Part shown: positions 1-63,374 of the stretch, one piece after another | Position numbering within the stretch: position 1 is the stretch's first letter | How the letters are laid out: each line of letters begins with the position of its first letter | NCBI RefSeq assembly: GCF_000003605.2 | Contig: NW_003135370.1 | Coordinates: 44,258 to 108,257 of the forward strand | From: Saccoglossus kowalevskii | Lineage: Eukaryota > Hemichordata > Enteropneusta > Harrimaniidae | Length of the DNA stretch: 64,000 nt | Reading direction: 5' to 3' | Notes under the pieces: model-generated | Database searches by the model: none | The model's input: only the letters and a program-made list of their open reading frames with translations | What the model was told of the DNA's origin: nothing | Position numbers and translations under genes: made by a program

Positions 1-82
1 TCCGCCTCGAGGACTTAGACCAACGGAGTCTATGGTGGGTATGAAATATGTGAATAGGCGGGTTCCGAGAACCCTCTGCCTA

Positions 83-157: not shown

Positions 158-582
158 ACGCTGATAGGTGGCAGGTTTTCCGAGCAAACAGAAAATGATG
201 AAAGTGATTTCCCAGTCAGGGATGAAACAAACTACAATAAACTCAACACCTTCGTTGCCTGTGCTGTCCCCGGAGCAAGAAGCCAAAATGCTGCTACGGT
301 GACAGGGTTCGGTGTGCCCGAGAAAGCCAGACCCCAAGACAATTCTGGGGGTAGTAGGCTTTCGAACTAAAGACCGAAACAGTTCTGCATATGATGGTAT
401 AGGCCGAAAAGCAGGCCCTGGGAGCTTCCAGTGAGTGCTGATGGTAGAGAAATCTGTCCGCATCAAATGCTGAGACTGACTTATTGCCTATGCGCAGGGA
501 CCCTTGTGGTCGTTCGGGCTGGGTCAGCAAACCAAGACTGACCTGCCCCGCTAAGACGGGACCCAACCTAAAGAGACCAAAC

Positions 583-2440: not shown

Positions 2441-2666
2441 TTAGTGCGAGATCAAAACCCGTCTAGTTCCCATAGGAGAGCTCGGCGTTATAACAAGCGT
2501 TATACCGGGCGGCTGCGTAGTGCGGCCTGGGGAACGACCCTTTGAACCAAGGTCATCATTCCAATGGCCCGCATTAGTTCTCGGATGGACACTGAGGGAA
2601 CGCTGACTAGGCGTTCGGCTAGGCTGCTTAGCGCTAAGCAACACGCTTGAAATAGCTATACCAAGC

Positions 2667-3313: not shown

Positions 3314-3754
3314 TTACAGGGGAGATGGAGATTTCCATGGTAACCAGGAACAGAATGTCACCACCTGGAAAGGTCCAGGAATCAGTCACCCACTGTCTCC
3401 AAACCGGACTACACCGGCACAATCAGTGTACGACAGGAATATGTGGCCATGGGTTCGGCAGTTGCGAGGGGGGGGGGGGGTGCTCTCTTCTCCTATGAGG
3501 TGAGTTCCCCAAGGCCTGAAGTAGTCACTAAGTTGTGACCTGGCCACTCGCCGAACACATGCCTGTCCCCCGGTTGCAGAGGTAAGCGTCAAACACGCTT
3601 CCCCCACTGCTGGGGTAGACGTCCGCCCGAGGAGGGTGAGGAGCCACCACCTGACTCTTCCCTCCCATGGAAGGGTATGAGCGCTTGCCTCCTGGCTGAC
3701 TCTGGCTAGCGGACTACGCCCTAGGGAATTGTGTTTTCTGTGCTTGGGGTGCCC

Positions 3755-4351
3755 TCAGCTTGCTCTTGGCAGGGCTAACTGGCTAGCGAATTCGATCTGA
3801 ACTCTCTGGTTCATTGCACTCTGAAGCTCCAAGACTGTACCCACCATTCCCCGAACAAAGAGGGTGGAAGATGTCCAGTCTGCGCCACTGTGGTGGGGAA
3901 GTACCCCCTTACTCAGATTGCTGGCGAAATCACAGGCGTCTAAGGCCGCGTCTCGTTGCGCGGTAGTGGCCCCGGCCAAGAGAGGCAGGTGACACTAAGG
4001 GATGTCACACGTAGATGTGCGGTGGCCCACCATTAAATGCGTCGTCTGGTCTAGGAGGCTGATGCGTTCTGCCTCCGAGGTCTCAGAATCCTGGGCGCAC
4101 ACAATAATGCGTTCAAGCAACTCTGCCCTCAGGGCGTGATGGATTGTCTCAGATTGAGCTGGCGAGAACACCCATGGAACGCGGCTGTCCCCCTTTACCC
4201 GGTCTGCCCAACGGAAATTTGTGGTACCGGGGTCTGGGGAAGAAGCCTTGGGATCTGGTTGGGGGTATTTTGGTCTCATCCCACACTTTGGGGGACTGAT
4301 CCCGAAACCACACCGACCGGGTAGCGTTTGGTCCAGCGGAAAGTGTTGCAT
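3755..4351 (-). pseudogene. Gag-like region of the DIRS element
   Basis: Two adjacent minus-strand open stretches (3995-4351 and 3755-3979) lie immediately 5' of the RT. They encode charged, helix-prone sequence such as LRAELLERIIVCAQDSETSE and RDAALDACDFASNL. Position and composition match the gag region of DIRS elements, but no invariant motif is visible. The call rests mainly on location. Confidence 0.4.
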
Positions 4352-6091
4352 AAGATTTTACCCCACCCGGGGGCCTTAAGCGTTACCTCCTCCGCGGCTG
4401 ACCAACGTCCACCCATCAACAACCTTTGCGCGACCTGTGCCCCACTCCTTACTCGGATGGACAGGGAGAGACATGCCGATGGGGTTGCTTTGGATCCCGA
4501 TGCCCGTGATCCCATAAGCGTTGAAGCAACTGAAAGTGGTCGCCTTAGGATCAGGGGTGGGGGTATTTACATCGCAACACTAAGATCGATGGAACTCCGC
4601 ATCACCTCAAAAGCCTGGCTCACCGAGTCGTTACGGATGGAAAACTCTGAGCAACCGCGTGAGGTACCGGCTGTTTCCGTCTCCTTTTCACTTTAAATAT
4701 GTGAGAGGGAGCGTGTTCGACTGTGCGCTCATGACAGGGTTGGTTCCCTCTGGGGACGCCCGTGGGTCGGTAAGAAGGGAGTCAAAAACCCACAGCGGAG
4801 ATCAGACGCAAGGGTATATTTGTTACTGTTGTACAATTATCGCGCAACAGACCCTGGCTGGCTGAAATTAGGGGGGTCAACGTGTGCCCTGCCCTGAAAG
4901 CCCTGCGAAGGCTTGGCTGCCAGCACCCCATTGGCATTCAGTGCCCGAGGCTCCAGAGGAAGTCCGGTGCAATTAGCCAGAGCCTCGGCCTGACCCAAAT
5001 TAGTGGGAGAGCCGCGGCTGGGAACAGGGGTTCCCCGGAAGAGACGTGTTTGAATGCAAACATGCTTTCGTGTGTCTTCCTACTTGCCCACCGGGGGCCG
5101 GCCGCAGTGGAGACAGCTCGCTCCGACTGTGTCTGATCTACCCGGCCTGCCAGGGAAGCAAATTACCCCAACAGTTCTTCCACCAAAACCCTCAACTAGG
5201 AAACAAACCCGGTGCCGTGTGAGGAAGGATTCACAAAAGGACCCACGACGGGCCCCATAGGAGGAAAAACCTCCAGAGGCACAGCCTCGCTGTAGCCGGT
5301 AAAATCGCGTAAACCACCACGTGAAAAACACAGACTGTGAGAATGCTCTCCGATCAGCGGGGGAAGACCGAAAAAATATCGGTACCTCCACTGTCAGGAC
5401 TCCTAATGGACGTCCCGGTACGCGAAGCACTGGTAGCCGAGTGTGAGGACTTTCCACTCATGCCAAACAGGCAACTCACTTTAACCGATTTTTTTACTGG
5501 ACGCGCGACCTTGCTGACAGTCAGTCTCAGCGATTTGATGGCTCTGAAAAAAAGAATATCTCGCACGCAGCCACGGCAAAAAAACGTATCGAATGCAGGT
5601 TCTATGCTGGTAAATTCTGAATATAATCACTGCACAGTCGACTCGAAAACGAGGAGGCCAAAAAACGGCATTACATCTATTCATTTCTAAATACGTAGAT
5701 TAAGCATGAGGGACATGGGAAGCGAATTACAGTAGTTAAAGGTGCCGCCACGAAACCAACAAGTGTTGTGAAAAAAATATTACACACAAAGGAGAAAACG
5801 ACACAAGGGTAAAGAAGACAAGAAAAACTTATCCTACCAGCTAGAATGTCGAATGCCGCCCAGCGGCAACAACCCAAGCTAGAAACCCGGACAGGAAAAA
5901 AGCAAGCGATCCAGGCAGAGCTTGAGATTTCATCTCCATTCGAGGTGGAGAAAAAATCAGAGTAATTGTACAGCCGTTAATGGTGCTGCCATATGGCCTC
6001 GGTCACATGGTTTGTGACGTAAGGGAAAGAGAATCTTGGGGTCATGGGGCTTCCCCTGACCTAGATTCTATCTCTCAGTCACTGGCAGAAT

Positions 6092-6452: not shown

Positions 6453-9400
6453 CCAGAGTATGCATGTTTTATCATTGGAGCATGTCAAAACCTTAGTGTC
6501 GTCACAACAGAACTGACATCCTGTAACACTATCTTTGTGACCACGCATCACTTTGATTTTCACCTGTACAGAGTAGAACAAAAGCATACTTCATATATTC
6601 ACAGGATGAACACAATAAGAATATAGTAAAATGGGGCAAAATGGGCCACTTCTGTTACACTTCTTATCATTTATTTTGTCTGTCTGTATGTCTGTGAACA
6701 GAATCGATAACTCAAAATGTTATAGTTTCTCATGAAATTTGCAGGAGAGGTTTCCCTAGACACAAGAACAAATTCATAAACTTTTATTTTAGATTTGGGA
6801 CTGGTTACTCATAAAAACAGCAATTTTGAAAATGATTTTTCATTTATTAGGATATTAATGACTTCTTATGAAATTGTAAGAAGAGTTTTGTCCTTGGAAA
6901 AAATGCTTAATTCATTAAACATTGATTGTAAATATTAACGTGGGATGCAGCCAACTTGTTTTTTTAAACTGCGCATTTTTCTGCGCATATGTCTATGCGC
7001 GTGCGTCACAAATCTCGAGGTGAACATTGGAGGTCAGGTCAAACACTTTCTTTATGAAGCGCTGTGTTTAAATTCCTGTACAAGTATGTTTCGTAATAAA
7101 AACGGCAAATTTGTTACTCGTGGAGTTTTCGAGCGAGAGATTGTACGGTTAGATGGCAGTTACAAACATGTAACAAGTGGTGAAACAGTGTACGATCCTA
7201 ATGACGATCAGTCCTACCACAGTCGAGACGCCGAACCTAGCGACGATGTACCCGTTGTCATCGACATTCAGCACCAGGAAGAAGTAGTGACATCTCCCGG
7301 TAAAGTCAATTATCTAGATGATGATTGTGTTCCTGTAGAGGACAGTGTACAATTGTCTGATTGGAAGGTGGGTCGTCGTGTTGTAGATCTTGGAGTGCTT
7401 GCTAGAGACCTCGATGCGTGTAAACAGTGTAGTACACCGTTGCGTCTGAGCTCCTGTGTAGGTGACAAGTGTTACGGCCTTGGATAATTCCGGTGTGATA
7501 ATTCAGGGTGTTTACTTATTAATCGCGTATATACAGGCAGCAGGCACAGACAGGAAGGAAAGACAACAGGATAACCCCTTTGGGATATTAATTCCAAACT
7601 CGCAATCGGTAAGTTGCATAGCTTCATGGTATGTTGTTGCTGCTGTTATATGTATTCAAGTTGTAGATGTTAGAAATGATATATTTTCAAAGCAATATTA
7701 CATTCAGTTCTGTAACTCCAGATATCAATGAAATCCCAGATCCTGTCATACCACCTGGTCGTACACCACTCACTAATAAATCAGTTAACTTTGTTGTTTT
7801 TGATCTGGAGACTACAGGCTTAGGTGAGAATGAAATGTATTTACTTACCTTACAATATAAGTTGAGTGTTTATAAAGTTGATAAACATAATCATGCATGC
7901 ACTGAATTGTTTGTGAATCAGATTCACCAAAAATTAATAATGATTTTTAGCTCACATGGCAGGTAATGAGTTTGGTGTATCTGTGTGCATGTGTCTGTAT
8001 GGGTGTGTGTCCCTGTGTAAACAATTTCAGATACACATATATTGTTAGGGGGGATGTAATGAGTGCAATGAAATTAGTACAAACATGTACATTTATTTAC
8101 CTACTGCTAATTTCTATTTTTTTCTTATTTCAGATACACAAGCAGATATTGTGCAGATAGCAGCTGTGCTGTGCCTGATAATTGCTTCAATGCATACACA
8201 TTTCCTTCAAAATGTCTTTTGGTACAGAATTGGCAACAAAAATTTCAGTTAATCAAAATACTGGCAAAATGTTTTATGATGGTAAAGAAGTTAATTCAGT
8301 GCCTTTGAGAGTGGGGCTCTCAAATTTCCTTTTATGGTTGAAATTAATTTCAAATGTTGTTTTAGTTAATCATAATGGGTATTTATTTGACAGTTGTTTA
8401 TTATTAGGTCTTTACAACGATGTAACTTAGTTGAGGAATTTCAGACCTGTTGTACAGGATTTCTAGACACACTTCCTCATTTTAAACATGTATATCCTGG
8501 TAGATCATCCTATAAACAGGAATGTCTTGTTCATGATATTCTTTACAAAACCTATGAGGCACATAATGCACAGAATGATGTCATAGCATTACAAGAACTG
8601 TTTTTGCAATCTAATCACAGTAATAGTTTACTTCACTCTTTCTCAATAGACAATATTCTTCAGGTCATTCACTTCGAGGACAGGAAAAAGTTTAACCTGT
8701 CAACATTCAAACCTATGATTGAGTCATGCACAATCTCAAAATCCATGGCTGACAAAATGGCATCATCTGGTCTTCAACATCAGCATTTGCGTATTGCATT
8801 TCAAAGAAGAGGTGCTGATGGTATACGTTCAATTTTTACAGAATAACATAATGGAAAGGCTAGAGTAACAATATCAAATAGGATCATAAACTCTGTCACT
8901 ACATATTTTGAATCAAGCTGATCAAAAGTAATTTTAAGTGACTGTCTTATTAATGCACTGTGATCAAATATGATTTGACACTGCAAATGTACCCTTTCAG
9001 GGATATATATTGTATTTTATTTGTGTATATTGAGCAGAATGATCTTATAATATACATGTATTACACATTTATTGTTTACTAGTTTACCAGAATCATATCT
9101 CTAATAAAAATAAACTAAAATGTATATATACATGCATTTATGTTTACTCAGAAAATAAAATGAATTTTTGTATTTATGTAACTTTTTCATTACTTGCCAC
9201 CTTCATTCTTCTGTATGATAGGAGTAAATAAAACCGGCCCCTCTCCCTACCCCAAATCACCTACCCTAGATTGGTCATAACGTGATCACATAACACACTG
9301 GATGTAGCAGGTAAATAAAGCATACCCTACCCAACTCTCCTACTTTGGATTGGTCATAATTTGATCACATAACACATACATTTTGGATGTAGCAGGTAAA

Positions 9401-29900: not shown

Positions 29901-31279
29901 GATATATTTGGCATACATTATGTAGTTCCATTCTGCCGTGAAATGTTTACAACGTACCGCTGCTTCTCCCCTCCCCCTCAGGTCAAGACTACCCACGTGT
30001 CACACCTGTGAAGGCAGTAGTTATTTCACCAAACGTTCGATCATTACTGAACAAGCCACGTATGAAGAATTTCCTAGTCTTACTTAGTAGGGCATGTGAT
30101 GATTTTAGAAGAAATTCGTATCTACAACCGCCTGGCTTATAGTGACATTAATCAGTGATTGATAGCTTGAAGGAAAAATACGGACTGTAATTTTATAACG
30201 TGCATGGGTGTATACGGATCGTGTACACGGGCCTCAGCTGTTAAAGTCCGCGTCTATGGTTGTCCTGGTGCTGGGACTGTGCCATTCACGCTTAAGAGGG
30301 GTCGCGGCTACTTTGTGTGATGAGCTATTTAACGTCAGTGACATTTATTTCGTTATAGATTCAAGTCTACACAAGATTAATTTGCCCTCAATAGACGATG
30401 AGCCATGTAGTCCATTGTCGACATTGTCTTTGTGTGACGCTACAATAGCCCGTGCTTTGTGACCGTCGTGTTCAGTGTTGAACTCGCGCGTTTGAAAAGG
30501 ACCCCCGCTCACCTTCAATACGTAATTTACCCCTAAAGAGTTACTTCATTGTGCACCATCGTATTCAGCAGCTCCCATAATTGAAAGGACATGGGTAGAG
30601 GCGGCTACAAGTGATTGTAATGTTGTCTACTCAGCAGACTTAACAAATGTCGACTTGGTCGCTGTGTACGGTGCATTTCTCGCGATTCACGGCGCGATGC
30701 TGACTCTGGTCGACCTATCAACCAGTGAATGGCAGACCGTGGACTACTATTTGATTTAGGACTCGACGACTCTGGTATCCAAGGAAAGGTCGCAGCAATT
30801 CGGATGTCTATTTATTCGCGTAATATATCTACCATTACACTAGGAACGTGCATAGAACTCTAAAGGATATCACCAGGCGCAATAAACAGCACGGGCTCTC
30901 GGGAGTTGCGAAGGCACGGAGGTATTTTGTGATTTAATATTCGAGTGTCATTGGTTACCGGAGCTCGATCTAGGTGAACGCCGGGTCGTGGGTTTTAATT
31001 GAGTACGCCACTGGGAACGCCACGCAGCTCGTTTACGATGACATGTGAGTCTGGGACTGAGTTTAACTGTGTATAGAGTGTGGATAAACACAACTATGGT
31101 GATATAGGAACATTATCCGCCAGTGATATCACCAAAACATGTGCAATTGAAGGACTATCGCATTGTACGTGTTTCTACTACGCTAAATAAGTGTACCATG
31201 GTGTTGTAAATTGACTGCTTTACTTATACGCGCTGTGATACAGTTCAGTGATATATAGTGAGTACTACAGCCGGTTAAC
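26961..31279. other. Intergenic DNA between MARCHF6 and the ANKUB1-like gene
   Basis: No exon of a known family is visible. From about 28.2 kb onward CpG dinucleotides become frequent, unlike everything from 8 to 28 kb. A short G-run lies near 28850. Open stretches of 84-94 codons (29424-29708, 30208-30462) have no recognisable motif and no support. The last several hundred bases must contain the promoter and 5' UTR of the ANKUB1-like gene. Confidence 0.4.
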
Positions 31280-42066
<10,787 letters not shown>

Positions 42067-44848: not shown

Positions 44849-47800
44849 TCAAAATATGACGTATACGTTAGAGTTTGGTGCAGCAGCAGCTTCTCCAGGT
44901 ACTGCGTTACAACTTAACTTGAGAGGATCGAATATCACGTTTATCAGTGAATGCATCCATCATTGGTTTGCCTAAAAATAAATAAGTAAACGTGAGTGCC
45001 ATTGCTGTATGGATTAATCGGATATTATAAAAAAAAAATGCTAAACTACGGTAATATAGCAGAATCGGATGAACCCGTACGGCAGAAAAAAAAACATTTA
45101 CTGACTTGGACAATCGTTTGATAAGAGAACGATAAACTTTAACGTTGGATTTTACGATAGGCTACATAAACATTTTAATTTATGGACGTAGTAAGGACAA
45201 TCATCGTTAAAACGTAATGCGTTGACATCCCACGAGCGAGAAACGCACGACGGAGCCGGTAAATACAATAATCCTGCTCTCAAACAGAGCCGCAAAGAGT
45301 CAGACCGAACATGAATACAAATTGCTGTCACAATGTTTTCTTCGCTTTTATTAGTTGAACAAGTCATGACGAAATGCATTGTATCTGTATATGAATAAAC
45401 TGCAATTTCTCACTATTGTTTTTATCAAATGGACCGTACTCAGAGACTACTTCGTATACTAAAATTACATTACATTAGTTCTATACTACCTGGAACAAAA
45501 CCCGATTGCGTGGTCGTTGTCTTCGATGGGGATGTTTGATATCTCTTCACCGTATTGCTCAGCTAAAACAGAAAATTACGTCATTCATTGAAAGCGCACA
45601 TGGGGCCCGTGTGATTAGTGAATTGTATATAGTGCAGACATGCGTTTAATTGTGTGCCCTACTAAGGTACTACACTTGCTTTGACGTAAATATTATAATT
45701 TGTATAACAATCCCATCACTCGCTTGGGTATTGTCGCGTATAAGCATTTGACGCGTGATTGCAGCTTACCGAATGGTGTGTGGTGTCTTGTTTGAAATAA
45801 TTTTCCCGACTGACTGTACGTCGTACTCTGGTGGCGAACGTCTTCCTTACTTCGTCATTAGCAAGGCAGTGGAAGATGAAAATGAAGAAACCCTAGAAGA
45901 AAACAACATTACAGTTCAACGTCCCCAAAGTTCGTCACAAAAGGGGCGTTGGTTGTTGCGCCGTGTGGTGTTCCATTTGTCAATATACAATACGTGTAAT
46001 ACATTGTTTGTGGCATGAAATTCAAAAACGCTCGGTGCGACGACCACCGCTTTTCAAGAATATCAAGTTTTTAAAAATTGAGTTTTAAGAAGGGGCCCGT
46101 TAGACCCAATACCTATACACAAATGCAGAATAATGCATTAATTAGTCGTTGCCATCGTTATTAGTTATCATTCCTAGGAATTTTGGAACCAATAAACAAG
46201 ATATAGCACGAACAAACTCACCTGGAGGGAATTGAGTATGGCAAAGATGTACTGGAAGGCAATAGTAGCATTGTTGAAAGCGAGGCAGCCAAACAACCAC
46301 GTGATTCCCAACAGAGGCAACAAAACCAACGCAGCACGCGTGGAACGCCTAGAAAACGTAAGAAAAGAAAAATATACAAGAGACGTCTGTGAGTGCAAAT
46401 GACAACGAGCCCCTCCATATTCAGTTGACGTCAGCTTCATTCATTGCTGCTCATTGTACATCTAATTTATTAAAAGTTAAAGACTCTTTCGCGATGTTGT
46501 TATATTCCTGTGGTATTTCCAAAACGCCTTCGACCTTTGATTGTTATATATTTTGTTGGCGAAAGATGAACGAAGTATTCCTAAAACACCCTGTTGTCAA
46601 TTTAACCGGGACACACACGTCACACAGGCGTGTTAGTGGTAGGCAAATATATTCACAGGGGAGGGATGCGAAGGCAGGGTTCATCTAACAACAATCTGCG
46701 CTCAAGATAATTAAAAACTAATTTCATGTAAACTGAATGAACAAGATACATGTGACCCAGCGTGACACGTCATCGCTTCATCCACAGGAGCCGGTTGATT
46801 AATGTCTTGGTTCTCATGTATCTTATTGTAATAACGTTAAGATGTAGAATGTAAATCAAACTTCAATCATCAATTCCGTTTCTATTTATCCCGTCACATT
46901 AATATGATGAATAAACAAATCAACCGACATCGGTTGATTGCATAGCAACAACGAGTTGAATAATTTATATGATTATGAAGACAATTATTGAGTCAATGAA
47001 AGTGAAATACTAGTAAATATTTATTATATTTTAATTAGTTATGTAAACAAACTCAACACAGCTCCGTTGTTGAGGGTATCTAAGGACTGAACCTATAATG
47101 TCAGACTTATTAACGACTCGGAGACTAGTTAGTGTATAGTGAATCTAATATACGTGTCCAGGCACACTTTGGTAAACATGTTTATTACTAATTTTGGTTA
47201 AATTCAATCCATGGCCTTCGCACATCCCATCATAAAACGATAACAACACCATTAATAATATTAAGCTGACATATTTATTTCAAACAAATCGTTAATCATG
47301 AATAGCGTATTATTTGTGGTGTTTGTAGTGTTTGTTGCAAATGTCAAGCGACGAAGTCAACACTGTAAACTGAATGCATGTCAAAAAGGCTTTAAACGAG
47401 AATGGCCGTCGAGATCTCGTCGATAGCGAAAAGGCCACGAGACTTGTTTTTACGCCATCGAATAATGTTAATTTTCCCCCGTCATCGCGTTCCTCGTTCA
47501 AAATACCATAGTTACATACGTTGGGCGAACATCGATCGCGATGACAGGAGCGAACACTACTTGAGAGGGAAAACCGCGATCTCGCGAGAATCTTTGTCTA
47601 AGGTCGGATATCGTGTAAAGTTTGCTTTTCTGAAAAGTCAGGTGATGTATTATACACTGAGGGACACGAGAGGAAAGATTTCTATAATAAAATCGTCTGC
47701 ACGAGGGTGCCACAAACGACTGTGTGTCATTACTCACTTTGCTTGGTCAATTTTGGGTTTCTTGGCGATACTTTTAACTGCCAAAAACGAGTGCATCACC

Positions 47801-50316
47801 ACGACCAAGATACCGATATTTACCTGCGTAAAGGGAGAACTGTTAGTAATGTTCACGGACATTTACATATTTATATTTGATTATCAGAAAGAAATAACGA
47901 TATTTATTCACCACAATAATAAAGAGAGCGGGTCCAGCAAACGCCCAAATGCTGTAATCGTGTACGGATAACCAGCACACGGACTCAGAGCCATAGGAGG
48001 TAATATCTACGCCGGCCGTGATCGCGACAACTACTGCCGGCAATCCTTCGAAGAGAAAGAGAAGAAAAGGAAGACATATTATAATAAACCAAGTATCCAC
48101 TAATCTTTGTTTAAATGAACTAGACTAAATATCATAAGAAATATTTAGAAAGCAGATAATAACTTAAAAATATAATTATTTTAATAATTCAGCTCATATA
48201 CTACGTGCAAACTAGGAGAGGATAAAATTGTGCATATAATACAAATATACTGATATAACTAGTGAAATATCCCGATACGTAGTATACGTCTTACACTTAC
48301 CGTAAGCAATAGGGTAGTAGAACTTAAGATATATACCCGTACTGAATACCCTGGTAACTCGTAAGTACAGGTGCATACCCTCTACTAACATCCACATAAA
48401 CGCTGCTAAGTAGACGTAATGTAGTACCATGGCAACCCCAGTACACAGCGACTGAAAATAGAACAATGGTCACATCAGCAAGTCCAGGCCATTCACCAAT
48501 TCTACGCGCACCAAAGCGTTTTTTTTTTCATTTTTTTAAACAAAATAACACACATTTCTGTATCAGCATTTTATAAACAGGTTACGATGAGTAGGTATAT
48601 CTTATTTTAAATATCACACACTGAGGCGAACACGTGAAATACACTACGTGATTTAACTCGGTCTTACCTGGTTCCAGGTAGCGTCGGCTCCTGCTAGGAA
48701 TGCGATGTTAGCTAACCCTAAAGTGACCATCAAGTTCATATTGATACTCGCCGATTCATAATTCAAACCCCTGGTATTAAACAAAGATTACATATATACC
48801 ATATTTGTCTAAGCAAACAATTCAACGTTCAAACCTTACATCAATGCACATATTTGCATATTACGTAATTTGAAGACGCCTACCTGAAGCAGAAGGCTAT
48901 AGTTAAGATAGAGAGTAACAGTCCAAAGAGTGATAACGAACACCCAATGTAGGTTATTATCTCCAGTGCCATCGAATCAGCTGCTGAAATCTGAAGGAAA
49001 CAAGAAATGGTGTATAACTATCGGTATGATTTGTCAGCTGTTATGCTGTGTTTTTAAAGTTATTGTTTTTAAAAGCACCAACCTGAGTGTCCTTCAATTT
49101 GAGTAGCACAGCAAAGTTGGTGAGATGGTTACACAGACAAATCACGTGAGTGTCGTTGACGCCACCAACGGTGCACCCGTCAGTGGACCAACCACCTCGA
49201 TCCGTCCCACTAGAACATACAACAGCAAATTTCAAGTCAACCAACATGTTTTAGACACCGCTAATCATGATAAGTCACAATTACACAAGATCGTTATTGT
49301 CGTAACGTTTAGTAGATAAGATACGGTGCAAATTTTTTTAAAATATATAACATAATATGTAAATAACAAACATTTCACATAGCAATCTTTGTTCAGTTTA
49401 TCGCAAAATATAGATTCGGCCAATCATACATCAAGATCGTAGGTCACATGATGTAAACTGAAATGCACTGATAAATCAATCCTACAAATGTGATTATCGT
49501 TCTTTAATTCGCATTTCTCAAACAAATCTGAAATTAATTAATCAAACATCAAAGTGCCTCCCAAAAAAGAGCAAATGTTTACTGTCACAACATACATGCA
49601 ATGCTTTTAAAACAAGACTGGCGTAACATATTCCTGTTCAAACAATGCATACAGTTAATAAATGTAATAGTAATTGTGAAAAAATACTCTACATACGGAA
49701 CAGAGTAATTCCAAAATACACACTTAATATCGTCTTCATCTGCTGTTGCCTGAAGCAAAAGAATAAATCATTTACAAATTTAAAAAAAAAGCCATTAGCT
49801 TAGAGAGAAATTACACGTGCATTGCATACTCCGTGTTTTTAACACCTTAGTTCCAGCGAATGTTCACAAGTCGTTAGCCATAGTCTTATTGTTGCATTTC
49901 ATCCAACCACGAGTAATTCCCGAACATGTTATATACTGCTATGTACATGTGCGCTGCCTTGAAGTGATTGCACTTTTATTTTAAATTAAACGCCTCAAGC
50001 ATATAAGATTTTCGTCCATAAATATGTCTGACATATCAAACTTTGCACCACGTATACTATTAGTATGTAACAAAACCCATTTTACTACAACATACTATTC
50101 ATACAATTAATTACCTCTATTATTTCCAAAGTGATTTTCACGTCATCCTCAAATTCTGTGTTGTCTTCTGAGATATTGTTTTTTACACTAGAGCTGATGA
50201 CGCGACTGTTTACAGCGTACGACTCATTCAGCCTGTTAATGACGTAATCAATAATGAAATAACAATCCTCAATGTTTATGTTGGCGTTAAATCAGGGAAA
50301 TATATCATGATATCAC

Positions 50317-50347
<31 letters not shown>

Positions 50348-53300
50348 GGAGGTTATATTACGCATCTGATATGCTATATATGCAATACCATAATTATATC
50401 TATGAACAAAAATATATAGTCAACCTAATATATATATGTGTACGGTAAATAAAGTTTTTAAATTGGAGTTCACTTTTCATTTCTGGGAATCGCCGGGTTA
50501 AATATTAGTTTGTTCTATTTCTGTCCAGAGCAATTTGTGGATAACAATTTATTGACGCCAAAATCGATTATTTTGCACTTTTCTATGTAGTTTCATATTT
50601 TGAAACGTGACACAGTTGCAGGAAAAATTGTTTATCAATTCGCTATAGGCGCATCAATATCAAAAACCTTACCTCACATCTGTGAACAGAATTCCAGGTA
50701 ACGCCGGAGCTAAATTAGCATAAAGAATGCTTACCACTTTTAAAGGCACTATATAAAAAATTAAGACACCAACCTCAGTACGTGAATTACACATTAACGT
50801 GGTATTCACTGACCAATACAACATGTTTACTTTTTATTTTTAATATAACAACTTTGATTTGTTTTCATTTTGAGTTAGGCACAATTTTCTATATATAAAT
50901 CTACAACGCATACCGAAACAAAAAACATCGGATGTTTTGTGGATAGTACTCATCATAGGCAAAACAATTTCACTAATGCACTAAGAGAATAATATAAAAC
51001 CAATTACAAAGTAAAATAACGTAAGATAAACAAAATAACCTTCTACTAAATCCGAAGTAATTAGGCACGATAGGCAATATTATTTCAATGAGAGCGATAC
51101 CACTTTGATGTGAACCGACAATCGGATGTTTTTCTGAATACTTATCACTGTAATAACATGTGTCAATAATTCGAAGACAAATTAACATATTGTTCTGAAC
51201 ATTTCCATTTTCACTTTTACAACGATCGCGTATTAGTTTCTCTAGCGAAAATCATCATAACTTCCGGAATATACACTTTTGGGTATATCCTGACTACCTC
51301 TGGTGCAAGGATTCTTGAAAACCTGAGAGTTATCTTCCTTCGACCTCCTAACTGTTCGTAGTCTAAGAGAACGCACACGATATGTAAATATACCAAAACT
51401 TTTATTTACCTGACAGAGGACCGGAAGTTACCGGCGGCACGTTAATAAGAGCAAAGGGACGTCTCCATTTCTCCTCCTCGAATATGGCAACAGAATAATC
51501 GGGAAAGTTCGTACCACTGAAAGACTGCTGATCAACTATCTCGATTTCCATTACTGAAATATACACAGTATGAAAGCATTACTTTTTCAACTAAAATACG
51601 TATAAACTTAGTTTATCGAGCACAGAACATAACACGCCAAAATGATGGGTTCTCCCCATATTGAAATACATTCCGTACATTTACATATATATGACATGTC
51701 AATTCCGGCCCATGGCGTTATTAATACAAAACAAATCCTTGCTACGAAAATCGGAAATTGCATGAGATATTTCCCACATACCGAAAGCGTCGGTCACAAA
51801 TGACAATCTACCGGGGCTCTCATCCTCGAGATCACCCAGCTTATCCGATATCAACAGACAAATGTCCTCGGTAGCTTGCATGATAATTGGTCCACTGACT
51901 GCGCGACTGGAATCATCCTGAAAGTGGAATAAATTAACGAGTACGTAACAGATTTAATTGATCAATTCCACATTAATAATGTGTACAACATTCAGTAGTT
52001 AGTGTTGTGTTCACTATTGCTAAGTAGCCAGTGAGCAGGCAGGCCAACGTCGATGGAATATAAGGCTGTACATCTATACCCGAATAAACGATTAATTAAA
52101 TCGGTGTGGAATCAGCTTATTGTCGTGTCTACTTTATTTTGGGCTTGTCGTCATGACACTAAACCAACAAGTCTTGTAGACACATTTCCTCTAATTTATA
52201 TAAATATTTGACAACAAGAGAAAGTCAAAAAGCTAAACAGTAGAGTTATACAATTTCCCTCCCTGCTGATACTAATTTAAAGATAGAGGTTTTTAGAAAG
52301 TAAGATTTACATTTCAACTATTTTCATAAACCATAGCAAATTATATATTTCATGAAAGCACACTAATTAAAAATCAATGTATATGGTCATGTGACGTCTA
52401 AGTAAATAAATCGTATTAATAAAGATGCAAATAAAAGAAGAAATTGGAAGGGATGCAACAATTTCATCACAAATGTAGAATAAAACTTGAGAAACTTTAT
52501 ATGTATATTACATCTACAATTTCTGAGAAAAGTGAAATAAAATCTGCTGTGTCTATGGGTGAGATGAATTGGACTCATTTCACTAGTCATTTTGTTGTCA
52601 GAATTAAAACAAAGATGCACACTAATTTGCATATCAATGTACGAAAAGTGGAGTTGCTTCAATGTTTTTTTAGTGGTCATGAATTCTTCCGTGACTAATG
52701 TTTTGACGCTAAGTAAATTGTAGATGATAGGTGAGCATCTAAAAATTGTTCGGTGACATATTGTCGCTTTTTTCATTTTCTGATTCATAAACACCAAGTC
52801 TGAACAATTTCAATGTGAAATTGTTATATGATTATGAATACAATATGAGCAAACGTTTTATCCCGTCGAAGCACAGCAAACACGCATCCAATGACATTCA
52901 TTTACCCAATGGAAAGTATAAGATTACAATAACTGCGCACCTTGTTTGAAAATAGTGTACATTAGGGTTTTAAATTCGTATATTTGTTATGAATTCGTTA
53001 TATCAATAATTGCTAGAATATAGCATCAAACAGCTTAATACGAATTGGTTAGTACTTACCATGACTACTGTATAACTAACTAGCAATTGAAGCATTTCCA
53101 AGAAATTCTATAACAAAGAGCAAATAAAAAAAGAAAATGACTTCGTTATAAGACCAATTCGCAGTTTGTACATATATTGTGCTACGAATACACGACGCGT
53201 GATAGTACATGACTTATCACAGTAGCCACAAGTCTAATCGCTCGTGTTGAAGTTCCTTTCAGACTTTTGCTTATACTTGTATTAAGTTTCGAGTAACTAA

Positions 53301-56300
53301 AACTTATATGATTTATTTAACATATAGCGCTATGCGATATTTAATGTCCAAATTCCACGTTATTAATGGCCAAAGCCTAAACGTGGAAATGGCAAGATAC
53401 TCAATCAATATCGACATTCATAATTTATAATAGGGGTTTAGCAAGTCCAAGAACACGAACGACAGACACACAATCAAACAGAACAGAATAAGTACAATGC
53501 ATGGTCAAATCAAGCAAGGCGTTAACAGCAATGTAGCTGATTTCACGCACATTGCCGCCATCTTCACGGACCAGTGAATCATATTTAGAAGTGTCACTTA
53601 CAAAGTCAGTCAATTACGAATTCCTGTTTTTGGGCAATACCACTGTATGATTACGAGTGTTTCAGATGAAATGTACCAGTGTACACCGCACTGATTAAGC
53701 ATATACCAATTTTAACACCATCGCCTTCATTTTCATTCAAATACACTCAGTTACGGCGCTCTCCTTAACAACCGTTAATTAGGTTTAGCGACATTTTATT
53801 TCACCGTGTTATCACTTGGTTTTTTTGCCATATATTTTCATTATGCAATTTTAACAGATTTAAACACTGTGATTTATAGCGACTTTTATCGAACGGATTC
53901 AGAGATAATCTCCGTTTTCCATCCCTGAGAATTAGCAACCATACCGTCCTCTCTGTGGGTCGTCAAACGAATTTTATTTTTATACTAAAAATGCTGTAAC
54001 ATTTCTAAAACATGGTATGTATTCTGAGATACAGTTGATAATAGTTAATTTCAGCATTTTTCGTCTTTTTTCATGTAGTTAAAATATATGTGAATGTATT
54101 AAACATGTACCCGCAGACGTCAGGCATTTGATGAATTTCAATTAGGAGGATGGTGTTTAACAATGTAATAACACAAATTGAATATGTTATATCCCTCAAC
54201 CACAGCAATCATCATTCATCATACTAAGTGTAAAACTTGTTCTTTAATATCCAAAGCAAAAATTATGCTCGATACGTTATTTATTAAAATATCGGACAAT
54301 AACATCTTGGAGAACGGTTTTCATTTGCGTAAACTAATAAATAATGCATTATAAATAATGCGTTATAAAACAAATCATAAATGAATCAACATGATCACAA
54401 CATTGGTGCATCGATTTATCCAATATATGAAGTCATCACGCCAATATATGAATGTCAGCATATCATTGAGTTATCTTTTCGACGTTTCGTGAAGTGATTA
54501 AATGCGCAATAAATGCAATTGTGTTTTGTTTGGGGGCACTTATTGGATTTGCTCAAAATAATGAGGGAGGAAATTGAATGCGACAGACATTCTTAGGCGC
54601 AGCAATAACGCTTTAAAAACAAAAATTGAAGTGGACCAATAAAAGGATAGAGTAAATCACTTTGTTGTACGCGGTCTCTATTATGCGGGATAGCGATCAT
54701 ATAGTCATTTCCTGGAAACGTGAATGAAACTAGCACCCTAATTTGTAATTTATAGTGGCGCTTGATGACGCATAGTAGATCGTTGGGGCTGACATTCCCA
54801 AAAGTCTCATAGCCACGACGATCAGTAACTGTCTGCTCGTTTATCTTGAGTTCAATTTATTAGTTGAACTTGCATACAGGGATACCACAATGTCTTTTGA
54901 TGCAACAAGGAAATATTTATTTCTCCATAGAGAATACTTTCACTAAGTTTATTGTATGTTTTTAAAACTAATTTTGTTGTCATTATTCCATGTTATGCAG
55001 TTAAGTTTCAAGTCACCATTTGCAATAATACTTTCAAGAGCATCAGCTCCGTCCTGAAGATAAGCAAGTATTCACAAATCAGAACGAACACGTACATACA
55101 AACGTGATTTACAAATTAAAAAAAATATATATATTATGTTGTTACTTACTTCAATGTAAATATCCCTATCCATTGGATATACTAACATGTCCAATGGCGT
55201 CATTTCAACTAGTCGTATCATTGTATCGATAAAGCGAACAAGCTGGGTCACCGTCAATTGATTTGATTCTCGGATTTGTCTCAGTAGGGCTGCTATGTAG
55301 ATATTGATGTCGTACGGCGTGACGCCACGGGTATCCAGTAACTGTAAGGAATAGGAATTATTGCATTTAACAGGTCTCGGTAGAATGGTACAGCAATTCA
55401 ATTGAGTATTTCTGAGCTAGCATATATATATCTATCGCTAATGTGTTTACGTGTTCCTACACGACACCGCCTGTAAACCCCTGGCTTTCAAATACGTCTA
55501 TATGTACATGCTGCGTAAAAAATGTGTTTTTTTTCTGGGGGGGGGGGGGATCTCATAAAGTGTGCTGAAACACAAAACACAATTTATCAATGATCTTTAG
55601 AATATTTTGTTTTAACTCCGTGCGTGGTATACAACAATATGTAGATTCCACGGGAAAGGGAGCAAAGAATTGGCCTGGAAAAGCTTCAACATAAAAGATG
55701 CCTCTATTCACGTAAAGACGGTTGACGCCGTGTAATCTCTAAATCAAATGCGATTCGACCCATGAGAATGAAATTGATAGATTTATGCTTAGTGATTCTG
55801 CGTAACCCGAATGTAAGGGCACATATATACAATCTTCACGGTCCTGTTTTTCACAATTAGTGGTTTAACTGTTTTATATAAATTGTCATTTTTGTAGTTT
55901 TTTTAAATTTATAAATATCAGTTACTTTTAATCGTAAGTATTTATTTCTGACTCGTTACTGTATTTCAAAACGACATTGGTGACTGTTTGCCCGCTGATA
56001 AGAAAATGAATTAATGAAGTTCCGCACACTCGTAGAATAATAATTTTTGGATTAGCCATGTGTGACATTGGTGATGTCCTAACAACACTTTATAGATTAA
56101 AGGAAGATAAACGCTTTGATCCAGTGCTCTTTTGCTGACTGACAAATTAAACGATTTTTCGTTCGTAGATTAATTAATACCGGTAATTACAATTGTCAAA
56201 TTTAGATGTCTTAATGCCCGTTTTGTACAAGTATGACACTATAGCATGGAATTTGCATCTGTCGCATTTTACACTCAACCACTTATTAACTCTGTACTAT

Positions 56301-56880
56301 AAAATCTGAACCCTAACATGTTTTTATTATCATATTATGTCTTGCATCCACTGCTTGACTTCAAATCTCATAAATTTGATATTCGAAGCAGAATGACGTA
56401 GGTTGGTAAGTATAAATGTGAATTGCAATTCATCGTTTTTATCTCTAAACTTATTCCAAAATTTATGTCATTTGGGTTCAATGAAATGTTTAATGTTAAA
56501 ATCTTTATAGCAACAACTGTGTTCATTGTGAAAACAGCCATAGCATGTGCAATTGTATATAACAAACAGTAGACGATTAGTATTATGAATGTGAACATTT
56601 ATATATATTTGTATGTTACTTAGTTTCTTGGTTGATTTATTGCGACGTTTTATAAAGAAAAAATAAACCGGCAGAATACGTACATCATACACTTAAAGTA
56701 CTGGCGGAAATAACTTCTAATTATCCCCAAAGGAATGCATACCATTTATCTAAAATTTCCTATAAATTGAACTCGATTCCAATAAGGCTAAAATAGTTCG
56801 AAATAGTATGACCTACAAACGATTAGTAATAACAATTTTATAACTGCAACGCACGCTGTGAAATAATTCAATGCAAAAAA

Positions 56881-56959
<79 letters not shown>

Positions 56960-59900
56960 ATACATTTGCGGAACGGATCGGCTAAATGTGGACGTGCCGT
57001 GAAATTGCTTCGTAGTAATAACAATGATTACATGAATTATTCATAAGTATATACTGACAGGTCCCGTAAGATAAATTGATGTTTTGATACTACAGTTCAG
57101 AGATACATCATATTGATAATTACATAAACGCGCAACATGGTAAATCGACGGTATAATGATTCACAATAATAGCATTCTTATAAATACACGTACATCGGCC
57201 AAAACAAAATAGCCTTGATAAAGGTCAAGGACACCACCGGTNNNNNNNNNNNNNNNNNNNNNNNNNNNNNNNNNNNNNNNNNNNNNNNNNNNNNNNNNNN
57301 NNNNNNNNNNNNNNNNNNNNNNNNNNNNNNNNNNNNNNNNNNNNNNNNNNNNNNNNNNNNNNNNNNNNNNNNNNNNNNNNNNNNNNNNNNNNNNNNNNNN
57401 NNNNNNNNNNNNNNNNNNNNNNNNNNNNNNNNNNNNNNNNNNNNNNNNNNNNNNNNNNNNNNNNNNNNNNNNNNNNNNNNNNNNNNNNNNNNNNNNNNNN
57501 NNNNNNNNNNNNNNNNNNNNNNNNNNNNNNNNNNNNNNNNNNNNNNNNNNNNNNNNNNNNNNNNNNNNNNNNNNNNNNNNNNNNNNNNNNNNNNNNNNNN
57601 NNNNNNNNNNNNNNNNNNNNNNNNNNNNNNNNNNNNNNNNNNNNNNNNNNNNNNNNNNNNNNNNNNNNNNNNNNNNNNNNNNNNNNNNNNNNNNNNNNNN
57701 NNAAATGATGTACTGTTTTGCGAGCTATTATATCGGACGGTTGCATTCCCGAGAGTTGAGCTACGGTAATCTCCAATTATCGGAGTCACCGGTGTAACGC
57801 GTGATTCAAATTCATCATCTTTGAAGACGTATAATGTACACTGGATTAGTCAACATGCCTTCCCTGTTCCTTAGAGAGATGATGAGACGGGGTGATGCGC
57901 TAAGACTAAATTACACTGGTACTAAGTACTAAGGATCGTGATCATGTCTCGTTCGATTGTAATCGATATCGTAATGCACAATACTTAGCACTGATTTGTG
58001 ATGAAGGTTCCATTTAGGTACGTGTTCCGACATCCCTGGAAACCCGTGCTGTACGTTTCAGAGTTTTTACTCAAGTTTGACAGTTTATACAAGTTTGGCG
58101 TACCCATACGCTAAACACACAGACACAGATAAAAAACTACAACATTTATATGACGGGCTTAAACGTCCTATTACACAAAAAGAAAACAAAATCGTAATAT
58201 GGTTGCAATGATATTATTGAATGTAACAGTGACATGTAGTAATGGTACACATGGTGCAATTCGAGGTTAATTAGTTGATAGTAAACCTAACTATTAAGTA
58301 CAGGAATTGTAAAACAAATATCTAATATACTATTTCTCACCTGCGCTAGAATGTCACACTCTAAAACATTTTGGCAATGTCTATGAATTGGCGATGCTGT
58401 TGCAGTAACACCTATAGGATTAACAGTCGGGCAATTGTTGCCTGCGTGAAAAATACAAAAATTGTTATTATAGATGAAAGAAGTCCATATGTATTTCAGA
58501 CAAAACCGTGCTACATTTATTACTATTAGTAACGTACCAATGGTCTTGATAAGAAACTACTCGGACGTAATTTCCTTGTACCTACCAGAGGTTCCACTTC
58601 CTCCACCGCCACCGCTATTGCCCCCACCACCGCCACCGCCGTTACCAACACCATTATTTGCTTTGAACGTTAAACAAAATAATCATTAAGAATGTTGCTA
58701 CCCACACTTATATAAGTTATTCAGTCTCGGAGTTCTTGGAACACTCAAATATTTTATGATAGGTTAGTTGTGCCTGAGATATGATTTTCATAGTATTTTG
58801 CAGAAAAGATAAGTGTGTGGCCGTGACGGCCGTGAACGCCGCGCATTCTGTACTAGTATTTTTCCCGACGCTTAATGTAAAATAATCCAGATTCTAAATG
58901 TGGGATAATTATGTCCTCTTTTATGCAGTTCACGTAATGATATGTTGTATATATGCATTCAGTCTACCTACAATTTCAAAGAACATTGTATACGACATTT
59001 GTGAAATCCGCGGCAGAGGAAATATACAAGTTTAATCCAACTCCAAAATCAACAAAAATAATCGTGATAAGGATACGATGTACCTTTAATAGACAAATAT
59101 CCTCTGTTACCATTATGTGGAAAGCCAAGGCCAGCGGGCACATCTCTCTCTATTCTTGGTAGGTATCCATTTGCCTCTTCGCTGACCAAAACTTCAATGA
59201 CACCACCGGCTCCGCCACATCCACAGTATGTATTATTTTCGGGTACAAAACTACCGTCTCCTCCACCAACATACAGTTGCCCATTATATAGGAGTTCGAC
59301 TGCGCTGGAGTCTATTCGAATTTTGCCACCGGCACCACCTCCCGCGCACTGATATGTGGAATTGACTGACTGCGAGGCAGACTGCCCCACGGCAGAAATT
59401 CGTCCACCTTTGACGAAAGAAATTTTCGATATGAGAAAACTATGGAAATAGTAAATTATATGATGTTTATAAGTATGTGTTTTTATTTTGTTTTAATTAC
59501 ACGAAATAAATGTGTGTTATGTTTCAAATATAGCAATATTACATTCAGTTAAAAAACGGCGAAATTTTTTCACAAAGGGTCATAGCTGATTCGTAAGATC
59601 AACACTTGAGAGCTAAGAATATTCCCATGTAAGTATTAACACCATAGTTACCATAGATTGTAGATACATCTTGCTCATACCATCCTCTATGTGTTATGAT
59701 GCCACTGTATAGTTAGAATCACAACTTCTCATTGGAGGAAATCCGTTAAACCAAATGGACTTGGCTTTCACAGTGACTTAGTTATTCTTCTTGAAAAGTG
59801 GTAAATTGCCAATTTAAGATTAAATTTCCGGGGCTTAAAAGCTTTGTGAGTACGTCCTTTGTGTTGAGATTGCTTTATTCGGGCTATAATAGAATCTGGC

Positions 59901-62900
59901 GCATCACGAGTTTGTAATTTACTGAAAGCGTGTATGGCCGATGCTATTGCCATAGCTTTACGAATCTCATTTGTATTCAGTCGTCGCTATTACAGCGATG
60001 ATAACAGCAGATTACCACATTTTGACTCACACTTTCAGATCAAGTATTTTACTTTAACTGCAAACTATGATTTATCCATATCAAGACAGTGGTTTTAGAA
60101 AGATGATATCGACACCAGTACTTAAGTGCCACTTGAAATAAATCAATTCTTAGTACTTCCAATAGGTAATAATTATTTGTATATCTTTCTGTGCTTGATG
60201 TTTCTTGAGATTATCAGGAATTAAGTTTAAATTCCCCCAACAAATATCCTTTGACAACAAAAAAATATTATTTTATACACGGATAGCTAATAGTAAAGTG
60301 CACATATTTGCTTTGTGACTGGTATTAGAAGGCAACATAAGCAATATGCATGGTGAATGAAACATACCTATTCTTACGATTCCCGGACTCTTTAACTCTA
60401 TCGCTCCGCCACCCCTTGCGTAACGTACTTCAGTTGAGTTATCATCAATTGAGACACGTACTCCCCCTGTTGAAAAACAAAAAAATGATTGATAGGGTGT
60501 TAGCGCATACGTGCGGTTTGATTGTGAATGAATGCCGATGCAATAACCCCTTTAGTCTGAGAGATGTTATCGGACAGAAATTCGATATTCAATCTTGTAC
60601 AGAGTAGATACTCTCATGAAAGGGAAGATCCTCGTCACCAGTGTATGTGTTCACATCCACTTATTCACGTGCAAGCGAGAGAACGCATGACTAAACTGAT
60701 ATTGAGAAACGATCGGTAATACAAAGCGTGTGTTATTTAGTGAACAAATACACCATTTGCACGTGTGTAGAGTCTGGTCAAGTGTTTGATTCCTAATCGC
60801 AGTATTGAATAGATATTTATTTTCTTATCGCGGTCTCTGCTATATTCGATTTGTGAAATGGCCTTTGCTTTCTACTTTCACGAAAATATCTTGCTCACTC
60901 TTTTCAAAATACCTGACTTCACTTCATGTATACTGTTTCACCATACATTTCTCTTACTGATTTGACTATGTAGTGTAGTGTAGTGTAGTGTAGTGTAGTG
61001 TAGTGTAGTGTAGTGTAGTGTAGTGTAGTTTAGTTTAGTGTAGTGTAGTGTAGTGTAGTGTGATTTTTGATTTACGGGTATGTAAAACGAAATTACATTA
61101 ACGGATGTAACTGATAACTTTTCCAATGTAATGTAGTGTAGTGTAGTGTAGTGTAATAGTTAGTTGTTTTGTTTTTGTGGATAGTTTTGTCGATTGTTAT
61201 GAAGCGTTTGTTTTTCATTCTTCGACTAAAACATTTCCCCATAACACTTTTATTCAAAAATCTATGGATAGGTATTTTATTTTTACATTGCAGTATTCAA
61301 TTTGTAAATTAGTATAACACTGCTCTTTGCAGCATTATTCAACAGTGCGCAACTGTGATGTACAAAAATACTATTGTTCGTTTTTTAACCATTTTCTACA
61401 ATCCAGATTCTGAAATCATTTCAATATGGTATTGTCTTTATAATATCAAACACATATGATATTGTTCACCCTTTATCACCACACAAGTTTGAAGTTATGG
61501 GAAGTTGTCTTAATCATTGAATTGAATGGTTTCAAAGCAGAAACATGCTGTCATCAATTCTCGGGAAAATATTTTAGTAACTATCATTTTCTTTTACACC
61601 AATACCTTTAATATATTGGGTCAGAGTAAAACATAATAGCATTTTATTAATTTATAGATTATTTCGTCTACCCTACCCGTGCACATCACGATTTCATCTC
61701 GGTAAAAATGTATTATTTAAAAGTTTTATTTAGTTTATGAGTCCCCTCGAGTGACAAGTCATGCATATTGATTAAATTGTTGGTATCTTATGTCATGCAT
61801 AAAACGAATTTAAAATATTGAAAAAAAAACACACGTTACAGTATTTATATCATGTGGTTTCATATTCATATTCATCATAATCACTAATCATTTAAAATAT
61901 GTGGATGTAGATTCTAACAATATGACAGTGCCATACCAGAACTGCCTCCCAATAATATCAACTCGTCATGATCGTTGTTAATTCCATACGCACCGCCATA
62001 CACCGTGCCGTTGTCATTGTACCACCCACCACCGTAGCCACCATGACCACCTCCGCCAGGAAAGTCTCCATTGTATCCACTTCCGGGTCCTCGATTACCT
62101 AAATATAGAGATAGCCAAGAATGGCGGTGAAAGTTGTAACCATGCATTGCCATGCGTATATCACGTGTTATTAATGTGCTATATCTATCGAAAGCACGTG
62201 TCATCAGTTGCATTCTAGTACGGCACATATATACCGTACAACTTTATATATATATTTTGTATTTACATAATTATTATCATTTGTACAATTGTATGCTGCT
62301 CTCACCCGTCGATATTATACATAAACGACCCCACCCTCCGACATGTCAGTGTGCACTGTCCCTAATGCATTGCGTGAATAAAATTCCGCCAAATGTAACA
62401 TCGCTCGACTGAATTCGCGCTTTTTCACACAGTCGCTTAAAAACGTCTTGTAAGTTATAACAAATTCTAGATGTATTTCGTTGATGTCACGTGATCATAT
62501 GTCAATGACATTGCAGAACTGGCGGAACCGTGTTCGTGTGGTCGCATGACCAGTTATCGTGGCTAAGCCTGGTGAAACGTGGGCAGCTATAATAAGACAT
62601 TTAAATGAAGTAGCTACCATGGGTGATTGGCGTTGAGCTAATTTCACGCGCTCCTTTATTGTACGTAATACGCGATGTCATACGCTATATTAATGCATGT
62701 CACATGTGATTCAAACATTAGCATGTAAAATAACATTATACATATTTTAAAATAAAAATTGTAGCAGGTCTTATACGACTATGATGGAATTAATAAAATC
62801 TCTCTGGAAACAGGTATAATAATTCATCATCCACACACACAAATGATGATCAATCATGACTAACCTGCATATCCACCGAGGAAATCTATATAATTTTCGT

Positions 62901-63374
62901 TTGATCCGATATCGCCGTCAAGAATTAAGTTCCTGTTAATGGTGATATCACCGGTCTCACTCTCTATTGAGAGCGAGTGTTCACCGATAATCTGTACCTC
63001 TACGCTACCATCGATGACTAGAGTCCCGTTAAATCGAAAATGCGTGATTAGATAATTCCATTCTTTCTGAGACTGGTCTTCGAAAGAGTGCGACGTAAAA
63101 TAACCATCGTATATCTCAACGGTCCGTGCTGGACTGGATTCTGTTGGCGGGGGAGCGGTAGCGTTTAAAGACGTCCCAGTGCCATTTGAAGAACTGGTTG
63201 TCAAGTCTGTTATTGTTAACGGGGTCGTTCCGATAGTAGAGTTTTCGTATTCTGTATTGTTAATGCCGTGGCTAGCTGGTGTTGTGACTAGCGGTATTTC
63301 TAAGTAGGAATATTGCCATGTGGCGTCCGTTGTATTTATTAATAACACCCCAGAGTCAAATATATGCTTATTTC
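44849..63374 (-). CDS. Adhesion GPCR with glycine-rich ectodomain (5' end outside window)
   Basis: Minus-strand exons, 5' to 3': 63374-62865, 62098-61937, 60466-60368, 59407-59084, 58660-58586, 58441-58341, 55341-55150, 53107-53060, 51917-51782, 51553-51410, 50748-50673, 50232-50115, 49749-49697, 49209-49083, 48990-48884, 48770-48668, 48451-48301, 48045-47912, 47823-47738, 46348-46222, 45892-45770, 45562-45490 and 44901-44849 (TGA). That is 1039 aa with all phases closing. Order: Ser/Thr-rich mucin-like part with N-glycosylation sites; glycine-rich module (exons 2-5); GAIN domain (exons 7-14); GPS (CVFWNYS..CLCNHL^TNFAVL); seven TM segments, with WMLVEGMHLYL in TM3, CWLS, LLPLLGITWLFG in TM6 and FFIFIFHCLANDEVRKTF after TM7. 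It should self-cleave and signal through its TNFAVLL tethered agonist. The TM region is closest to the latrophilin-like type. The N-terminus and signal peptide lie beyond 63374. The last two exons are the least certain. Confidence 0.9.
49083..49749 (-). other. GPCR proteolysis site (GPS) of the adhesion GPCR
   Basis: Two exons (49749-49697 and 49209-49083) give the full Cys/Trp box: CVFWNYS, then WSTDGC, then CLCNHLTNFAVL. The cleavage tripeptide His-Leu-Thr is at 49127-49119, with scission expected before the Thr. All four cysteines and both tryptophans of a canonical GPS are present, so autoproteolysis is predicted. Confidence 0.9.
50322..50346. repeat. TA dinucleotide run
   Basis: About twelve TA units in an intron of the adhesion GPCR. 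Confidence 0.9.
52118..53059. other. Intronic DNA of the adhesion GPCR without visible exon
   Basis: Part of the intron between exons 53107-53060 and 51917-51782. Overlapping open stretches (52387-52797 minus, 52444-52698 plus) have no recognisable motif. They might be an old insertion, but nothing supports coding. Confidence 0.35.
56877..56961 (+). repeat. AAAT tetranucleotide microsatellite
   Basis: About 21 uninterrupted AAAT units in a receptor intron. The same tetranucleotide, on the other strand, forms the array at 33789-34026. Confidence 0.97.
57242..57702. other. Assembly gap, 461 N
   Basis: A run of 461 N inside a receptor intron. The non-round size suggests an estimated rather than placeholder gap. 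Confidence 1.
58586..62098 (-). other. Glycine-rich ectodomain module of the adhesion GPCR
   Basis: Exons 62098-61937, 60466-60368, 59407-59084 and 58660-58586, all phase 1-1, encode spaced Gly clusters alternating with short beta-like strands. Examples in order: GGGGHGGYGGGW, LLGGSSG, YARGGGAIELKS, CAGGGAGGKIRID, YCGCGGAGGVIEVL and a final poly-Gly stretch. The alternation of GGGxGGxIxV blocks with hydrophobic strands and paired Cys resembles the glycine-rich region of ALK/LTK-type receptors and Gly-rich beta-helical surface proteins. The resemblance is by pattern only. Confidence 0.7.
60969..61062 (+). repeat. TAGTG pentanucleotide microsatellite
   Basis: About 18 TAGTG units with two TAGTT variants in an intron of the adhesion GPCR. 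A second short array of the same unit follows at about 61131-61157, separated by about 70 bp of unique sequence. Confidence 0.95.

Follow-up and report, generated by a model that had tools for sequence, protein, structure and literature searches.

The 64,000-nucleotide stretch of Saccoglossus kowalevskii DNA analysed here (hereafter the window; contig C2750, positions 44258–108257, of a 572 Mb genome) carries on its minus strand a multi-exon gene that, judged by its predicted product, is an animal adhesion G-protein-coupled receptor (GPCR). The N-terminal fragment of this receptor probably carries a mucin-like stretch and one bacterial-type glycine-rich beta-module, which a poly-glycine linker joins to the GAIN domain.

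Gene model and receptor core

Open reading frames (ORFs) and splice ends, read by hand and joined by script, give 24 coding exons (E2–E25) that run on the minus strand from 63374 to 44907 in agreeing phases, with AG preceding all 24 exons and GT following 23, the remaining exon finishing at the stop codon. The original prediction had set the gene at 44849–63374; its upper limit is exactly where E2 starts, while the lower one had to be moved, lying 58 bases beyond the end of the stop codon at 44907. The features of the model are:

E2, 62865–63374, minus strand: mucin-like Ser/Thr-rich stretch with N-glycosylation sequons, then the segment into the glycine-rich module (phase 1-1; from the translation)
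E3, 61937–62098, minus strand: part of the glycine-rich loop, with GPGSG, GGGGHGGYGGG, YGGAYG and LLGGSSG (phase 1-1; alone 4.0 bits with the bacterial profile described below)
E4, 60368–60466, minus strand: module strands GGGAIEL..GIVRIG (phase 1-1; alone 5.6 bits with the bacterial profile)
E5, 59084–59407, minus strand: module core, with GRISA.G, CAGGGAGGKIRI, NGQLYVGGGDG and CGCGGAGGVIEV (phase 1-1)
E6, 58586–58660, minus strand: poly-Gly/Asn linker (phase 1-1)
E7, 58341–58441, minus strand: cysteine-bearing linker towards GAIN (phase 1-0)
Run of N, 57242–57702, no strand: within the E7–E8 intron
E8, 55150–55341, minus strand: from its position, presumably the helical part of GAIN (outside the Pfam match)
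E9, 55017–55053, minus strand: presumed GAIN
E10, 53060–53079, minus strand: 20-base exon, uncertain, chosen for phase
E11, 51782–51917, minus strand: GAIN (Pfam)
E12, 51410–51553, minus strand: GAIN (Pfam)
E13, 50673–50748, minus strand: GAIN (Pfam)
E14, 50115–50232, minus strand: GAIN (Pfam)
E15, 49697–49749, minus strand: start of the GPS region, CVFWNYS (Pfam)
E16, 49083–49209, minus strand: GPS, HL/TNFAVLL, with the presumed cleavage site (slash) and tethered agonist
E17–E22, 46222–48990, minus strand: most of the seven-transmembrane (7TM) region (48990–48884, 48770–48668, 48451–48301, 48045–47912, 47823–47738 and 46348–46222)
E23, 45770–45892, minus strand: end of transmembrane helix 7 and start of the cytoplasmic tail
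E24 and E25, 45562–45490 and 44971–44907, minus strand: cytoplasmic tail; the stop codon TAA ends at 44907

The predicted GAIN/GPS/7TM core was recovered by Pfam in the E7–E25 product, with 7tm_2 scoring 1.6e-58 (198.3 bits, profile positions 3–250 of 250), GPS (PF01825) 8.8e-18, and GAIN (PF16489) 2.1e-10 over profile positions 83–209 of 210, the first part of GAIN being left uncovered. The nearest PDB chains by sequence are ADGRL3 (4.2e-78) and ADGRD1 (1.2e-68), and the GPS translated from E16 reads CNHLTNFAVLL, with an intact HL/T. Counted exon by exon, the same genome contains at least 76 7tm_2 matches and 40 GPS matches, among which E16 ranks second for GPS; exon matches beyond the window's contig show at most 62% identity to the receptor. 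Together, the Pfam and PDB matches and the many relatives in the genome indicate that the core is that of an ordinary adhesion GPCR.

Exons E2–E6 form five consecutive symmetric phase 1-1 exons (510, 162, 99, 324 and 75 bases, all divisible by three). A run of this kind is what ectodomain shuffling predicts, and the five exons therefore fit a shuffled ectodomain. According to our model, the glycine-rich exons and the GAIN/7TM exons are one gene, as E7 and E8 share a strand, meet in phase 0 and are bounded at this junction by GT and AG. Several points weigh against this assignment: the E5 acceptor and the 20-base E10 were picked to preserve phase; the 3 kb intron between E7 and E8 holds the 461-base run of N; and the first, signal-peptide exon was not identified in the ~19.6 kb upstream of E2, where a scan for such exons returned four weak rows, equivalent to three distinct exons. 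Because of the N run and the missing first exon, the joining of the glycine-rich exons to GAIN/7TM is a prediction from phase and strand rather than from RNA. Were these exons instead part of a separate secreted or membrane protein, the GPCR would have a signal-peptide exon of its own in the interval from 58.3 to 55.3 kb, where the N run might conceal it, and an ORF with a hydrophobic start, MFTFIILIVYCLLYTIAHA, is indeed present at 56598–56368. Against this, a scan of 55342–58341 for an ATG, a hydrophobic stretch and a phase-0 donor (GTRAG or GTRAT) gave no candidate, exons hidden by the N run or overlooked by the rule aside, and we consider an arrangement of two genes unlikely.

The glycine-rich region and the ALK/LTK comparison

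Both ectodomain segments named in the original prediction are present in the translation: a mucin-like, Ser/Thr-rich stretch with four N-x-S/T sequons, and a glycine-rich region; two cysteine-bearing glycine blocks, CAGGGAGG and CGCGGAGG, are read there as well. The glycine-rich region is unrecognised by Pfam, which reports no family in E2–E8 other than a chance-level domain of unknown function (0.21), and it matches no PDB chain, NCBIfam family or PHROG.

The module had been called ALK-like, a description that did not hold. A glycine-rich domain of the ALK/LTK type moved onto an adhesion GPCR would agree with both regions being glycine-rich and extracellular, but the profile of that domain, PF12810, has no match in the ectodomain at E up to 10, a null limited by the HMMER filters, which discard most matches above an E of about 0.1. 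The same profile does pick out an exon in another part of the genome, a single one on contig C1938, with 24.7 bits against a cut-off of 24.5. This exon (locus L031, C1938:1388748–1388894, minus strand) belongs to an ALK/LTK-like receptor locus, the joined pieces of which match nine distinct PDB sequences, all of them ALK, LTK or the ALK homologue scd-2 (5.4e-22 to 3e-8); these matches mark the locus as ALK-like and also establish that ALK/LTK chains are present in the PDB set searched. A profile of six bacterial modules (see below) matches nothing in that set at E up to 10, ALK/LTK chains included, and the genome's own ALK-like pieces reach at most 8.6 bits with a seven-module bacterial profile. 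On the PF12810 null, the PDB null and these low-scoring ALK pieces, we reject an ALK-type identity for the region and regard a transplanted ALK/LTK domain as extremely improbable.

The suggestion that no described subfamily carries such a module agrees with the part of the literature covered, where we found no description of an adhesion GPCR ectodomain of this kind; in the portion of the text of PMC13197933 that was examined, the term 'glycine-rich' has 0 occurrences, and in PMC12716839 the word 'glycine' appears 3 times.

Relatives of the module and neighbours of the gene

We took the block order of the glycine-rich region to resemble that of bacterial glycine-rich modules, which prompted a scan of bacterial genomes with a consensus typed after the window had been seen. 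Among at least 587 pattern-matching stretches, six encode a relative (L025–L030), located on two contigs of an uncultured bacterium and in Opitutia, Alphaproteobacteria, Polyangium and Kerfeldbacteria, and the element order in their proteins, read by eye, is the receptor's. Scored with a profile of seven bacterial modules, the segment from the end of E2 through E5 reaches 48.6 bits, colinear over model positions 19–187, compared to −17.5 bits for the reversed segment and 2.7 bits for the best of 2000 shuffles; in repeat controls, the best of 1000 residue shuffles gave 1.3 bits and the best of 1000 12-residue block shuffles 21.5 bits. The genomic order of E2–E5 scores highest among all 24 exon orders, and the E5 ORF is the best in the window with this profile (28.7 bits, ORFs of at least 30 residues), followed by the E3 ORF (5.8 bits).

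At the level of single positions, the receptor was aligned together with 12 bacterial and five animal modules (from contig C4411, see below), the row of L029 being omitted because it has a long insert. Of the 41 strongly conserved columns, called at 80% or more of these 17 relatives, 34 are identical in the receptor. The positions kept include non-glycine ones, in the motifs GGGAI, I.G.I.A.G and GG.I.I. The likeliest kin of the receptor's glycine-rich region, as far as sequence can tell, is thus an unnamed bacterial-type module of ~200 residues, extending from the end of E2 to E5.

Modules of this kind recur in the animal's own genome. A bacterial module used as query matched the genome 18 times at E up to 10 (12 at 0.001 or below), and one of the animal modules so found matched it 24 times (14 at 0.001 or below), the latter between 120 and 212 kb; every match of both searches lies on contig C4411.

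C4411 module region, ~120–212 kb, plus strand (L032–L049): many glycine-rich module pieces

Five of these modules score 59–83 bits with the bacterial profile. The module matches on C4411 are spread over open frames, the longest of 1390 codons, and short frames, with a G+C content of 27–43% per locus. The short frames suggest introns, which argues that the region is an animal gene region and not a contaminant. The region, 1056 residues of which matched nothing in Pfam, probably encodes an uncatalogued giant multi-module protein of the animal; none of the listed 7tm_2 and GPS matches of the genome lies on C4411. Two further candidates for module sequence were rejected: E2 as a repeat of the C4411 type (best 5.5 bits, compared to 11.0 bits for the best of 100 shuffles), and an E3-like remnant seen in the translation of the E4–E5 intron (59685–59635, minus strand), which 225 of 300 DNA shuffles equalled or outscored.

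A number of observations weigh against kinship with the bacterial module, and would fit a convergent glycine-rich sequence instead. Most of the conserved columns are glycine; shuffling in 25-residue blocks (1000 trials) yields up to 41.1 bits with the bacterial profile; one permuted exon order comes to 46.8 bits, next to the genomic 48.6; and with a profile of the five C4411 modules only, the receptor scores 13.7 bits, where 1000 such block shuffles yield up to 22.0 bits. The low score of the receptor with this last profile also counts against a recent origin of its module from the C4411 region. In a tree of 18 modules, none of the 15 inner branches is fully supported, and the branch of the receptor is long and unsure in its placement. 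Since the consensus was typed with the window already seen, the bacterial proteins were not chosen blind. Single-sequence searches found no relative of the receptor region among phages or, for a 176-residue part, among plasmids, confirmed none of 66 pattern-matching stretches for the ectodomain in bacterial genomes, and did not link the window to C4411, whichever of the two supplied the query, so that further module copies may have gone unseen; nor does E2 alone show significant similarity to the bacterial or C4411 pieces. A single-sequence fold of E5 reached a predicted local distance difference test score (pLDDT) of only 31.

Convergence would, however, have to produce a colinear match that keeps non-glycine motifs along with the glycines. 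The true sequence outscores all shuffles with the bacterial profile and also with a combined bacterial and C4411 profile (46.8 bits, compared to 41.3 bits for the best block shuffle), the true exon order outscores every other, and the same genome holds copies of the module that the bacterial profile recognises strongly. We therefore regard convergence as quite improbable and retain kinship with the bacterial-type module as our reading.

In bacteria, the module occurs in varying numbers, with 34, 1, 33, 2 and 3 matches in the five genomes concerned. In the genomes of L025 (G001) and L028 (G003), the 34 and 33 matches lie in open frames, the longest of 3878 codons, and represent an unnamed bacterial family. 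Across the phylum of the Polyangium genome, 33 of 140 genomes carry the module at E 1e-6 or better, by an alignment and threshold that missed the Polyangium genome itself. None of 600 pattern-matching stretches in viral contigs was confirmed with the bacterial-module profile. AlphaFold2 predicts the bacterial module, from 12 rows, as all-beta with 11 strands at medium confidence (pLDDT 66, predicted template modelling score 0.70; residues 65–99 and 109–124 below pLDDT 50).

Elsewhere in the window, positions 1–6000 have a G+C content of 52–55%, compared to 25–44% across the remainder. An ORF at 2667–3203 (minus strand) resembles a retroelement reverse transcriptase, with no Pfam match at 0.01, and one at 8391–8846 (plus strand) matches PML_C (PF25244) at 9.3e-12. 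Three more ORFs on the plus strand, at 31262–31705 (ubiquitin-like, 0.0074, below the cut-off), 39927–40409 (ankyrin repeats, Ank_2 at 7.9e-10) and 41278–42066 (charged), together look like an ANKUB1-type gene.

Proposed working and comparison with known systems

The ectodomains of adhesion GPCRs set the binding partner, and many such receptors are orphans. In the family at large, self-cleavage of the GAIN domain at the GPS leaves the N-terminal fragment attached, and a tethered agonist is bared once that fragment is removed, as described in PMC13197933 and PMC12716839. By analogy with this established biology, the GAIN domain of the receptor would cleave itself at HL/T. The glycine-rich module, flanked by the mucin-like stretch and the poly-glycine linker, could then serve as the adhesive part, binding a partner in the matrix or on another cell. 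If the N-terminal fragment were pulled off or shifted, by force or by ligand, TNFAVLLKL would be exposed and, as in other adhesion GPCRs, may insert into the 7TM bundle, acting there as a tethered agonist and giving rise to G-protein signalling. Given that its modules are of the receptor's kind, the product of the C4411 region is a natural first candidate for a ligand, albeit a putative one.

A wider reading is a tentative possibility: a subfamily of adhesion GPCRs may sense through a bacterial-type glycine-rich beta-module that was exon-shuffled from a pool also represented in the putative giant multi-module extracellular protein of this animal. Such a receptor might bind that protein, like to like, or similar proteins of bacteria, and the module would be an adhesive unit common to bacteria and to an animal mechanosensing receptor. 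A receptor built on such a module would define a new class of adhesion GPCR ectodomain and offer a first candidate partner. The module itself, for which we found no Pfam entry or solved structure, recurs in bacteria and on C4411, pointing to an uncatalogued domain family.

Among known receptors, the latrophilins (ADGRL) and ADGRD1, which are the best PDB matches, share with the receptor the GAIN domain, a GPS with HL/TNFAV and the 7TM region. Latrophilin ectodomains carry lectin and olfactomedin domains, whereas Pfam finds no lectin, olfactomedin or hormone-receptor domain in E2–E25 and the glycine-rich module stands in their place, domains further out being possible because the 5' end of the receptor is missing. 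ALK and LTK resemble the receptor in having an extracellular glycine-rich domain, but they are receptors with an intracellular tyrosine kinase, where Pfam reports no kinase in the E7–E25 product and the model has a 7TM region and a short tail instead; they differ further in the PF12810 domain, and in being represented in this genome by a locus of their own. With the bacterial modules of L025–L030, the receptor shares the order of elements, most of the conserved columns and the profile score, although many of the bacterial proteins hold several copies in one long frame while the receptor has a single copy that introns interrupt, with GGVIEV at the site of the GGRIAV-like sequence common to most relatives. 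The C4411 region carries the same kind of module as the receptor and differs from it in having no listed 7tm_2 or GPS match, and in a profile that the receptor fits poorly.

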